Shown here piece after piece: positions 43,146-47,936 of a DNA stretch of 64,000 bases. The position numbers and the translations under genes are program-made. Source of the stretch: Parvibaculum sp. (GTDB lineage: Bacteria > Pseudomonadota > Alphaproteobacteria > Parvibaculales > Parvibaculaceae); contig JAHBYL010000003.1 of assembly GCA_019635955.1 (NCBI GenBank), positions 1 to 64,000 of the forward strand, in the 5' to 3' direction. The notes beneath the pieces are model-generated. The model did no database searches. It was not told the origin of the DNA and was given only the letters and a program-made list of their open reading frames with translations. Position 1 is the stretch's first letter. Each line of letters begins with the position of its first letter.

Positions 43146-43817
43146 TCACCAGTCGTAGAGACCCGTGAACTTCGCAAAGCCCGCGGCGCTCGACCACGAG
43201 GCCCATTGCTCACGTACACGCTTCGTGACGGCGGGACTCCCCGCGCCCTGCCCGATGCCGAGCATCATGAGTTCGCTGCAGCCGGCGAAGGCGGGTTGGG
43301 GCTTTGGCAAGGAGCCGCCGCGCAGCAGCCGCGCCTGTTCGGAATCCTCGAACCCGTCGGTCAACAGGATGAAGCGGACATCGCCCGCCTCGCAATCGAC
43401 CTGCTGCGACATGGTCTCCATGAAGGAGACGATATAGGTCCAGTCCTGCGCCTGAAGCTTGCCCTCTTTCACGAGCTGCGGCATGGCGGCGACGAGCGCG
43501 GCGACGCCCTCGGCCACGGTCTCGGGTCGGGCGCGCGCCGAAATCACCTCGTCGATCTTGAGCGGATTGGCGCTTGAATCATAGGCCCCGAATGTGCGCA
43601 CCATGAGGCGCGAGCGAACGGGCAGCTTGTCGATCTCGGATGTGAGGCGCTTCGCCACGCGCGCCGCATAGGCCGAATCCTCGACCAGCGGATTGCTCTT
43701 CGAGATGTCGAGGCCGATGACCACGGTCTGCGGTGCGGCGGGCGCATCGACAGCCTGCGCGGACAGGGAGACGGCAAGAAATCCGGGGACAAGAAAGAAG
43801 CCGAGCCAACGGCGCAT
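43146..43817 (-). CDS. exported von Willebrand factor A-like protein of unknown function
   Basis: A 223-residue protein with an N-terminal signal peptide (MRRWLGFFLVPGFLAVSLSA, likely cleaved after AQA). A vWA-like domain follows. VIGLDISKSNP provides the DxSxS metal site, and LLTDGFEDS is the second acidic motif. It should be periplasmic and bind a divalent metal. It is the last of three tightly packed genes; the gap to the membrane protein gene is 5 bases. I know no defined pathway for this trio. Confidence 0.8.
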   Translation of the reverse strand: MRRWLGFFLVPGFLAVSLSAQAVDAPAAPQTVVIGLDISKSNPLVEDSAYAARVAKRLTSEIDKLPVRSRLMVRTFGAYDSSANPLKIDEVISARARPETVAEGVAALVAAMPQLVKEGKLQAQDWTYIVSFMETMSQQVDCEAGDVRFILLTDGFEDSEQARLLRGGSLPKPQPAFAGCSELMMLGIGQGAGSPAVTKRVREQWASWSSAAGFAKFTGLYDW

Positions 43818-43822
43818 GCTGC

Positions 43823-44935
43823 TCACTCTCCCGCCGACCCGATGGGAATGCGGCGTGCCTCGCGCGGCGGCAGAAGCTCGCCCATCGGCTCGCGAACGGG
43901 CTGGAGATAGGCGGGTCCTGCCTTCATCGCATTGCGCGAGCGGCGCTCCCACCATTCGTCGAAGAGCTTTTCATAGCGGCCGAGGTGTCGCGAGTCCTCA
44001 CAGGCCTTGAGCTTGTCGCGGAAAGAGGTCGCCGCGCCATTGATCGCCATTTCCTTGCGCAGGCCGAGAAAACTCCGCCCTCCGGTGTCCCGCGCGGCAA
44101 GCGCATCGCCCTTGCGCCGCGCTTCCTCGAGCCCTTGTTCATAGGAACGGCATTCGCGCATGAGCCCGGTCCAGAGGAGATGGCGGCGGTTCTCAGGTCC
44201 TTCCATTTCCGACAGCGCGTGGCGATTGCTGTCATGCTCGGCTTCGAGCGCGGCAAGCCGCTCCATCGAGGCGCGGCGATGACGGAAGTCTCGTGCATGA
44301 AAGACGCGGCGAAGAGACTCCGCTGCGTAATGGATGCAGAGCGCGGCAACGCCGGTAACGACGAGGAAGACGATGCCGAGCGAGGCAAGCCAGGCCATGG
44401 GCTGCCAGCCGCGCATCTCGTCGATCTCGCTGGCGGCCCGCTGCGTCTCCTGCGTCGCCTCGGTAGCGATACCGAGCCCCGCCAGAGCGTTGCCGAGCGA
44501 GGAGCCGACCGAGCCGTCGCCCGTGGCCGCGATACCGTTCGGCAGCGACATCAGCGCAAGCAGCACGCCGACACCGAGCAGCATGGTAAGGGCGAGCACG
44601 AAGACGATGCGCACGAAGAGCGCCTTGCCGAAGGGCCCGAGCTGTTCATAGAGAATATGGGCGGCGACCGTCGCAAAAAGCACCTGCATCGACTTGAAGG
44701 CGACGGAGGAGCCGAGCGCGCCCGGCAGTTCGAGGAACTCATTGGCGAGCGCGCGCGTCCAGAATTCGCTGACGATCATGTAATCGACGATCAGCGCCCC
44801 GAAAGCGATGAGACCGACCGTAATGAATGTCAGGAGATAGAAACTCGAAAAGCGCGCCTGCCGCTCGCTCGCGACATAATTGCGATTGATCTGCGCGCGC
44901 ATCTCTTCGGGAAGGAGAGAGAGAGCCTTGCTCAT
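43823..44935 (-). CDS. multi-span membrane protein with cytoplasmic coiled-coil tail, unknown function
   Basis: A 370-residue protein of no family I recognise. The first 205 residues hold four hydrophobic segments: near 28-52, 78-95, 108-130 and 180-200. A Gly/Ala-rich loop with DGSVGSSLG lies between the third and fourth. The remaining 165 residues are charged and helical (RRASMERLAALEAEHD). Its start overlaps the stop of the small coiled-coil gene by 4 bases (ATGA). Likely forms a complex with its two operon partners. Confidence 0.8.
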   Translation of the reverse strand: MSKALSLLPEEMRAQINRNYVASERQARFSSFYLLTFITVGLIAFGALIVDYMIVSEFWTRALANEFLELPGALGSSVAFKSMQVLFATVAAHILYEQLGPFGKALFVRIVFVLALTMLLGVGVLLALMSLPNGIAATGDGSVGSSLGNALAGLGIATEATQETQRAASEIDEMRGWQPMAWLASLGIVFLVVTGVAALCIHYAAESLRRVFHARDFRHRRASMERLAALEAEHDSNRHALSEMEGPENRRHLLWTGLMRECRSYEQGLEEARRKGDALAARDTGGRSFLGLRKEMAINGAATSFRDKLKACEDSRHLGRYEKLFDEWWERRSRNAMKAGPAYLQPVREPMGELLPPREARRIPIGSAGE

Positions 44936-45225
44936 GCCTTGGCCCTCCGGCTGAAGAAGCCGCGCTTCTTCGGCGCTTCCTCGCTCACGCCTTCGAGCGG
45001 CGCGGCGAGGCGCTTCGCCAGTTCGGCAATCTCGCGTTCCAGCGTTTCCTGCCGTGCACGACGGCGCGCAAGCTCGGCGGCATAGGCCGCATCGAGTTCC
45101 GACAGCCGCGAAAAGACATGAAGCTCGGGTAGCGGCTCGGCATTCCGCCCATAGGTCCAGGCCGTCTGGCCCTTGTCGGCCTGTGTGCCGCCTTGTCCGC
45201 CCGTGGTCTCGAAACCGTTGCTCAT
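44932..45225 (-). CDS. small coiled-coil protein, first gene of the CtrA-boxed operon, unknown function
   Basis: A 97-residue protein starting MSNGFETTGGQGG. A polar Gly/Gln-rich N-terminus leads into a helical heptad region (SELDAAYAAELARRRARQET and on to about residue 75), then a strongly basic end, PKKRGFFSRRAKA. There is no membrane segment. The upstream 8-codon extension lacks a ribosome site, whereas AGAGGG lies 9 bases ahead of this ATG. A CtrA-type box lies 31 bases further upstream. Confidence 0.75.
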   Translation of the reverse strand: MSNGFETTGGQGGTQADKGQTAWTYGRNAEPLPELHVFSRLSELDAAYAAELARRRARQETLEREIAELAKRLAAPLEGVSEEAPKKRGFFSRRAKA

Positions 45226-45255
45226 CAGCCGGCCCTCTTGCTCACGCACCCCGTA

Positions 45256-45270
45256 TTAACGACTTGTTAA
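45256..45270. promoter_or_regulatory. CtrA-type binding site TTAA-N7-TTAA
   Basis: TTAA (45256-45259), 7 bases, then TTAA (45267-45270), followed by C, is an exact match to the full CtrA consensus of alphaproteobacteria. It lies 31 bases upstream of the three-gene operon start and more than 170 bases from the stop of the ecm gene, so the operon is the target. Confidence 0.62.
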
Positions 45271-45446
45271 CCGTAACAGTCTTGGCGGCCGGAGCGGAGT
45301 CCCGAATAACGCGAATGAAAGCAAATGAAACCCGCTGCGATGCTGCCGGATACTCGGGTGCACCTAAATTTCCACTGTGCCATTGGAGGACTCCAATGCG
45401 GCGGAAACATTATGGGAATATGGCGGGAATGTGATCGAAGCGGCGC

Positions 45447-47450
45447 TTATGCCGCCTCGTCCGTGTTGTAGTCCACCAAGCGGACAACCTCGGCCATGAT
45501 GTCGTTGATCTGGAAATCCTTCGGCGTATAGATCGCAGCGACGCCGGCGGCGCGGAGCTTTTCCTCGTCATCGGAAGGAATGATGCCGCCGACAACAACG
45601 GGAATGTGGCCGGCGCCCGCATCCCGCATCCGCTTCATTACGTCTTCCACCAGCGAGACATGGCTGCCGGAAAGGATGGAGAGGCCGACGACATGCACGT
45701 CGCCCTCTTGGGCCGCCTTCACGATCTGCTCGGGCGTGAGGCGGATGCCCTCATAGACGACATCCATCCCGCTGTCGCGGGCGCGCACCGCGATCTGCTC
45801 GGCGCCGTTCGAATGGCCGTCGAGGCCGGGCTTGCCGACAAGGAACTTGAGACGGCGGCCAAGCTTCACCGATACCGCATTCACCATCTCGCGCACGCGG
45901 TCGAGATCGCCAGGCGCATTGCGCGCGGCGCGGGAGACGCCGGTCGGCGCGCGATATTCGCCATAGATATTGCGGAGTGCGGTGCCCCACTCGCCGGTGG
46001 TAACGCCGACCTTCGCACAGGCGATGGAGGGCTCCATGATGTTGCGGCCTTCCTTCGCCGCCGCGCGGAGATCGGCAAGCGCCGCCTCGACGGCCGCCGC
46101 ATCGCGCGTCTCACGCCATTTTTTCAGCGCCGCGATCTGCTCGGCCTCGACGCCATGATCGACGACATGGATCGAGCCCGCGCCGGTCGAGAGCGGTGAC
46201 GGCGCCGACTCTTCATACTTGTTGACGCCGACCACCACCTGCCGTCCCGCCTCGATCTCTTCGAGGCGCGCGGAATTGGATTCGACGAGGCGCTCCTTCA
46301 TGTAGGCGCTTTCGACGGCGGCAACCGCGCCGCCCATTTCCTCGATACGGGCAAGTTCTTCGCGCGCTTCCGCCTTCAGCGCCTCGACCTTCGCATCCAT
46401 CACCTTCGAGCCGTCGAAGATGTCTTCATAGTCGAGAAGGTCGCTTTCGAAGGCGAGGATCTGCTGCGCGCGGAGCGACCATTGCTGGTCCCAGGGGCGC
46501 GGCAGGCCGAGCGCCTCGTTCCAGGCGGGCAGCTGCACCGCGCGGGCGCGCGCATTCTTCGACAGCGTCACGGCCAGCATTTCGAGCAGGATGCGATAGA
46601 CGTTGTTTTCCGGCTGCTGTTCGGTGAGGCCGAGCGAATTCACCTGCACGCCATAGCGGAAACGGCGGAGCTTTGCGTCCTCGACGCCGTAGCGTATCCG
46701 GCAAAGCTCGTCCCAGAGGTCGACAAAGGCGCGCATCTTCGCGATCTCGGTGATGAAGCGCACCCCGGCATTGACGAAGAAACTGATACGGCCGACGACC
46801 TGAGGAAAATCCTTCTCCGGCACCTGGCCGCTCGCCTTCACGCGGTCGAGCACCGCAATGGCGGTCGCCAGCGCAAAGGCAAGCTCCTGCACCGGCGTCG
46901 CGCCTGCTTCCTGCAGATGATAGGAGCAGACATTGGTCGGGTTCCACTTCGGCACCTGCGTATAGGTGTAGGAGACGATATCCGTCAGCAGGCGCATCGA
47001 GGGCTCGGGCGGGAACACATAAGTACCGCGCGAGAGATATTCCTTGATGATGTCGTTCTGGACCGTGCCCTGCAGCTTCGCGCGGTCCGCGCCCTGCTCG
47101 TCCGCTACCGCGATATAGAGTGCAAGCAGCCAGGCCGCCGTCGCGTTGATCGTCATGGAGGTGTTCATCTGCTCCATGGGAATGCCATCGAACAGCGCCC
47201 GCATGTCGCCGATATGGGAGACGGGCACGCCGACCTTCCCCACCTCGCCCCGCGCCAGCACATGATCGGCGTCATAGCCCGTCTGGGTCGGCAGGTCGAA
47301 AGCGATCGAAAGGCCCGTCTGGCCGCGCGAGAGATTGGTGCGATAGAGCTCGTTCGAGGCCTTGGCCGTCGAATGCCCGGCATAGGTACGGAAAATCCAC
47401 GGCTGGTCCCGCTTGACCTGCCCGTTGCCGCCGTCACCTTTCGCGCTCAT
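45447..47450 (-). CDS. ecm: ethylmalonyl-CoA mutase (B12-dependent)
   Basis: A 667-residue coenzyme B12 mutase of the MeaA/Ecm type that turns (2R)-ethylmalonyl-CoA into methylsuccinyl-CoA. The N-terminal barrel has IAFDLPTQTGYDADH and the substrate-loop segment TSMTINATAAWLLALYIAVA. The C-terminal B12 domain has GLDGHSNG (DxHxxG) and LSILSGSH. At about 670 residues it is a single-subunit mutase, shorter than methylmalonyl-CoA mutase large subunits. GAGGT lies 7 bases before ATG 47450. mcd and ccr lie nearby, so the assignment is firm. Confidence 0.93.
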   Translation of the reverse strand: MSAKGDGGNGQVKRDQPWIFRTYAGHSTAKASNELYRTNLSRGQTGLSIAFDLPTQTGYDADHVLARGEVGKVGVPVSHIGDMRALFDGIPMEQMNTSMTINATAAWLLALYIAVADEQGADRAKLQGTVQNDIIKEYLSRGTYVFPPEPSMRLLTDIVSYTYTQVPKWNPTNVCSYHLQEAGATPVQELAFALATAIAVLDRVKASGQVPEKDFPQVVGRISFFVNAGVRFITEIAKMRAFVDLWDELCRIRYGVEDAKLRRFRYGVQVNSLGLTEQQPENNVYRILLEMLAVTLSKNARARAVQLPAWNEALGLPRPWDQQWSLRAQQILAFESDLLDYEDIFDGSKVMDAKVEALKAEAREELARIEEMGGAVAAVESAYMKERLVESNSARLEEIEAGRQVVVGVNKYEESAPSPLSTGAGSIHVVDHGVEAEQIAALKKWRETRDAAAVEAALADLRAAAKEGRNIMEPSIACAKVGVTTGEWGTALRNIYGEYRAPTGVSRAARNAPGDLDRVREMVNAVSVKLGRRLKFLVGKPGLDGHSNGAEQIAVRARDSGMDVVYEGIRLTPEQIVKAAQEGDVHVVGLSILSGSHVSLVEDVMKRMRDAGAGHIPVVVGGIIPSDDEEKLRAAGVAAIYTPKDFQINDIMAEVVRLVDYNTDEAA

Positions 47451-47531
47451 CGCCTGACCTCGCGTCATCAAACCGTTGCGAGGAAATATCACAGGCTTTG
47501 CTGCGCTGCAAAAGGCGAGACGCGGCGCCGT

Positions 47532-47936
47532 TCAGAGGGCGCCGGTCAGAATGTCGACGATGATACCCGTGGCAACCGCGACCAGCAGAATGTCGTTGCC
47601 CGCGATGATGCGCTCGTAGCCCGGCCGGGGAGGCAGCCCCGCCACAAGCTCGCCCGGCAGATAGCGCTTTGCGATGCCGGGCGGCAGCGGCTTGCCGCGG
47701 GCCAGATTCTTGGCGATGCCGGGCGGAAGCGGTTTCGCGTTGTACGGGTTGGCCACAAAATAATCCCGGATAAGACGTGTTTCTTCCGCACCGAAGGAAA
47801 CCGATATGCCGGCGCCTATATCAAGCATGGGCCCGGCGCCAGACGGATTTTCCGGCTTTCCTCCCTTAGCCTGAGCCAGACCGGCCGGCAGGAGAAATGC
47901 CAGGGAGATCATGATTGCAACGGAACGGATGGGCAT
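47532..47936 (-). CDS. CigR-like exported protein
   Basis: A 134-residue protein with a signal peptide (AIMISLAFLLPAGLAQA). It contains twin copies of LPPGIAK separated by NLARGKP, and ends with a hydrophobic stretch GNDILLVAVATGIIVDIL. This arrangement is that of CigR, an inner-membrane anti-virulence regulator first described in Salmonella, and of many uncharacterised environmental relatives. Its role here is unknown. It is 81 bases upstream of ecm on the same strand. Confidence 0.8.
   Translation of the reverse strand: MPIRSVAIMISLAFLLPAGLAQAKGGKPENPSGAGPMLDIGAGISVSFGAEETRLIRDYFVANPYNAKPLPPGIAKNLARGKPLPPGIAKRYLPGELVAGLPPRPGYERIIAGNDILLVAVATGIIVDILTGAL

Follow-up and report, generated by a model that had tools for sequence, protein, structure and literature searches.

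What do three tightly packed genes of a Parvibaculum-like bacterium do, and does the CtrA-type box in front of them define their function? The window, i.e., the whole stretch of 64,000 nucleotides that we analysed, is a piece of a Parvibaculum-like draft genome of 3.26 Mb (G000, contig C125). The nearest named record of gene 2 is a Parvibaculaceae MAG (99.7% identity). The elements under discussion are, in the direction of transcription:

45447-47492, minus strand: methylmalonyl-CoA mutase (MCM), which adjoins the trio upstream.
45297-45301: GANTC (CcrM-type) site at -76 from the start of gene 1, with a putative role.
45273-45278, minus strand: conserved hexamer TGTTAC, 17 bp from GACTCC.
45256-45270: CtrA-type box TTAACGACTTGTTAA, an exact TTAA-N7-TTAA.
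44932-45225, minus strand: gene 1, an open reading frame for a helical cytoplasmic protein of 97 amino acids with a basic tail.
43823-44935, minus strand: gene 2, a membrane protein of 370 amino acids, probably with four transmembrane spans, both ends inside, and a long cytoplasmic helical tail.
43146-43817, minus strand: gene 3, a predicted exported vWA protein of 223 amino acids, with a complete MIDAS motif (D37, S39, S41, T127, D154), Cys142 and Cys180, and an invariant C-terminal DW.

The preliminary description of this DNA had presented the trio as tightly packed and as belonging to no named system, and it was right in both respects. All three genes are read from the minus strand; genes 1 and 2 overlap by 4 bases, and 5 bases separate gene 2 from gene 3. 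Searches of Pfam, NCBIfam and PADLOC with the three proteins of the window and with the families of genes 2 and 3 revealed no family membership. Matches to Dioxygenase_N, Trp_oprn_chp, Cas11e and LeoBC were weak, fell below the curated cut-offs where such cut-offs exist, and were treated as chance. The module thus goes unnamed in both Pfam and NCBIfam. On the other side of MCM, also on the minus strand, positions 47532-47936 encode a small exported protein in which the motif KPLPPGIAK recurs; it found no Pfam match at E 1e-4.

Genes 2 and 3 are an obligate pair. Among the 385 alphaproteobacterial genomes sampled, the profiles of gene 2 and gene 3 each match the identical 21, and in 20 of these the two genes are neighbours. 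The remaining one (G345) has them on separate contigs, each at a contig end, so that adjacency could not be observed there. Within this sample the pair spans eight alphaproteobacterial families, always as a pair. In two loci of family f91 (L078 and L080) it is tandemly duplicated with the order 2-3-2-3 retained. About 95% of the class sample is devoid of the module, and among 398 genomes sampled across the phylum the gene 3 profile matches none beyond the window's own genome. The flanks are kept across families, with MCM at one end and GluQRS, an esterase and an HNH gene at the opposite end.

The three genes are passed on together and lost together. The 20 Parvibaculum-type loci hold all three genes in unchanged order. 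In G014, a complete Parvibaculum genome, the MCM match is followed about 65 bases on by a match to an AEC gene and the trio is absent; in G002 all three genes are absent between MCM and GluQRS. That these genes form a functional module is, in our view, very likely. Among the genomes that lack the trio are the ones poorest in TTAA-N7-TTAA (G014, G001 and G002), whose 8-9 sites are fewer than those of their own reversed-pattern controls.

What, then, is gene 1? Its orthologues were found in 20 of 20 Parvibaculum loci. In three loci of family f121 (L065-L067) its sequence is fused in frame to gene 2 and forms the N-terminus of a single open reading frame. In more distant families gene 2 has an N-terminal domain of its own, to which gene 1 shows a weak profile match (E 2.4e-4, probability 44%). 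Because of this fusion and the weak similarity elsewhere, gene 1 is probably the detached N-terminal cytoplasmic domain of gene 2. The claim that the three genes are conserved together therefore needs an amendment: they do travel together, but the core is a two-gene pair and gene 1 is not an independent partner.

The product of gene 3 is the best understood of the three. Its AlphaFold2 model (pLDDT 90.7, built, like that of gene 2, from only 37-38 diverse sequences) shows an alpha/beta Rossmann-like vWA fold; the best E value in Foldseek was 1.3e-4, and VIA gave a Z score of 12.7 at 3.1 A across 155 residues. The vWA metal site, previously proposed from DISKS and TDGFED, is intact as a motif: both stretches align as a MIDAS, and a complete one, none of D37, S39, S41, T127 and D154 varying among 38 sequences. 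Cys180 does not vary in this set either, and Cys142 hardly does. The protein of the window has a visible signal peptide with an AxA-type site; those of L069, L072 and L077 instead have an apparently uncleaved N-terminal anchor. All 62 copies (45 distinct) end with -DW directly before the stop codon. The model terminates with a strand at residues 216-220, followed by YDW. In integrin I domains, alpha-7 lies behind the region of about residues 290-323, where the alignments to gene 3 stop. As the model ends after its last strand and the I-domain matches stop before alpha-7, the family appears to lack this C-terminal helix.

Gene 3 is thus best described, from its model, as a divergent exported vWA protein. 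It shares the predicted fold and the complete MIDAS motif with the vWA superfamily (integrin I domains, ArnB, CLCA1). It differs in that the chain ends, at the invariant -DW, before alpha-7, a helix that typically follows beta-6 without strictly defining the superfamily, and in that none of the curated vWA models of Pfam and NCBIfam, a match to which is the usual rather than a strict criterion of membership, was matched by the 38 members at E 0.01. It is, further, a single-domain exported protein with a dedicated membrane partner. By sequence, the PDB offered only weak matches, some of them to vWA proteins. The Bat/BatA-type and MoxR-associated vWA proteins share with gene 3 an envelope-located vWA domain, but gene 3 is separate, exported and paired with an unrelated multispan protein; among the neighbours examined no gene for a MoxR-like AAA+ protein was identified.

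Gene 2 is less easily placed. The hydropathy plot reveals three strong spans; the fourth, TM2, is a polar stretch at residues 73-98, so that the four spans proposed earlier are plausible rather than certain. They fit the charge distribution, which places both ends inside, and the predicted helices, and they precede the long helical tail. The invariant residues include A47, D51, I54 and W59, as well as K81, Q84 and H93, which lie in TM2. The family found no match in Pfam or NCBIfam, nor by sequence in the PDB. The predicted model is of low confidence (pLDDT 71, pTM 0.48), and a fold search with this weak query against the PDB and viral models was equally without a match.

How might these proteins work together? 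The best overall explanation, to which we assign a probability of roughly 55%, is a vertically inherited, dispensable trans-envelope module of alphaproteobacteria. It builds on observed linkage, co-occurrence, absence as a unit and the fusion of gene 1 with gene 2, on the predicted vWA fold and on the MIDAS motif. Gene 2 would be the inner-membrane protein; its long tail and the product of gene 1, probably its detached N-terminal domain, would be the helical parts that face the cell interior. Gene 3 would be the periplasmic partner. We consider it probable that it docks on gene 2, presumably via the conserved periplasmic segment EFWTRALANEFxELP at residues 57-72 of the latter and via its own invariant C-terminus, the chain breaking off at the point where alpha-7, the last helix of a vWA domain, would be expected to begin. 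More tentatively, somewhat short of even odds, gene 3 may bind a ligand via the MIDAS metal. The module as a whole would then serve signalling or anchoring across the membrane. What speaks against this explanation is the weak model of gene 2, the seemingly uncleaved anchor of gene 3 in some families and the small share of the class that has the module.

Gene 2 could also be an ion channel, a transporter or a proton-driven stator, to which the vWA protein would contribute as an auxiliary subunit in the periplasm. The polar invariant residues D51, K81, Q84 and H93, which lie in or beside TM1 and TM2, would suit such a function, and vWA proteins do act as auxiliary channel subunits elsewhere, the alpha2-delta subunit of calcium channels being the known example. 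Yet no pore can be identified in gene 2, and no resemblance to a solved channel or stator, MotA/ExbB/TolQ-type stators included, was found in sequence or in fold, though the model of gene 2 used for the latter is of low confidence. We consider this reading rather unlikely.

The literature gives TTAA-N7-TTAA as the site of CtrA throughout the class (PMC9437464, PMC7200025). The exact box ahead of the trio had been described before and is indeed there, with 30 intervening bases to the ATG of gene 1. It can serve only the trio, because MCM, upstream on the same strand, ends there. The draft genome of 3.26 Mb contains 15 such sites, about 0.0005 being expected per 100-bp promoter. By raw count the genome-wide enrichment of the box is weak, as the reversed pattern occurs 13 times, and the case therefore rests on position, conservation and the content of the targets. 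A coding start, called by a simple composition rule, lies within 200 bp of 14 of the 15 exact boxes versus 6 of the 13 reversed-pattern controls. Other boxes adjoin fliX/flgI, a flagellar rod gene and the gene of a pilus N-terminal protein; further ones are found near PAS and MHYT-HisKA proteins (sensor kinases) and near an ABC ATPase, which we take to resemble FtsE. CtrA itself is encoded: with a Caulobacter CtrA sequence as query, an orthologue of 84% identity was found at G000:C169:51366-52043. About 80 bp upstream of ctrA, at G000:C169:52125-52138 (locus L100), lies TTAACAAAGGTTAA, a CtrA-type box with N6 spacing; this 14-mer is also present in six other Parvibaculum genomes searched.

Much of the genus Parvibaculum retains the box ahead of the trio. 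The N7 form is found in 9 of the 20 loci, with the eight half-site bases invariant and the 7-base spacer in seven forms. TTAA-N6-TTAA replaces it at three more loci, in three other species whose genomes hold only 4-11 such sites each. In other Parvibaculum species the box is degraded. None of 20 loci from other genera has an exact N7 box in the 200 bp ahead of the pair. For Parvibaculum a CtrA site is credible, and the operon is likely under CtrA control there. The literature searched did not place the trio genes in the described CtrA regulon, and searches for CtrA with Parvibaculum or for the CtrA regulon with vWA retrieved nothing relevant. The trio shares with the alphaproteobacterial CtrA regulon the exact palindromic box in a genome that encodes CtrA and whose flagellar, pilus and kinase genes have boxes too; it differs in that its box is limited to Parvibaculum and has N6 spacing in some species. 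As other genera lack the box, CtrA control of the module would, by this sequence comparison, be specific to one lineage. It could mean repression as well as activation, since the box lies near the start codon and a purine-rich stretch resembling a ribosome site lies between them.

Further elements accompany the box. The GANTC site keeps a fixed spacing to it in 7 of the 9 loci with an N7 box and persists in 5 loci that have lost the box. The hexamer TGTTAC is a possible -10 element. Between MCM and the trio, at 45381-45398, lies a perfect 18-base inverted repeat, CATTGGAG-GA-CTCCAATG, which contains GANTC; sequences similar to it are seen upstream in several other Parvibaculum loci.

Is the module, then, a CtrA-timed factor of cell division or of the pole, and part of the core cell cycle, along the lines of the cell-cycle-timed envelope complex that the preliminary description suggested? 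The exact box, its conserved half-sites, the presence of CtrA and the boxes at flagellar, pilus and signalling promoters speak for it, and the box stands as a credible CtrA site in this genus. But the pair does without the exact box in all 20 loci of other genera, several Parvibaculum loci have a degraded one, and complete G014 lives without the entire module. Since the box is degraded in other Parvibaculum and absent in other genera, cell-cycle control does not define the module. A role in the core cell cycle is accordingly improbable, about as much so as a channel.

Less probable still, and a long shot, is that gene 2 supplies the missing alpha-7 helix, or a segment that fills the groove, to gene 3 in trans. 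An allosteric lever of the integrin type would then be divided over two proteins, the inner membrane protein would read the binding of a periplasmic ligand, and the sensor would be timed by CtrA in Parvibaculum. A role in the flagellar or pilus machinery is very improbable: the trio has the CtrA-type box in common with flagellar and pilus genes of the genome, but it sits outside those gene clusters. A flagellar component was rejected because the module is present without detectable FlgI in G042 (97% complete) and G177 (91%) and the FlgI-bearing G014 lacks it. Anti-phage defence or mobile-element cargo, which the patchy spread over the class and a membrane protein with a partner of unassigned role might suggest, is the least probable of all because of the conserved chromosomal synteny across families and the lack of any plasmid match for genes 2 and 3, PADLOC having matched, unconvincingly, a single one of 37 gene 2 members (E 0.0065).

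We thus return to the dispensable trans-envelope module as the preferred reading. Clear mutants to make follow from the linkage, from the fusion of gene 1 with gene 2 and from the two invariant features of gene 3, its MIDAS and its C-terminus. CtrA control would be present in a single lineage, Parvibaculum, the module being otherwise older. Should the vWA protein signal through gene 2, bacteria would have a counterpart of integrin-type allostery whose two parts are encoded by separate genes.
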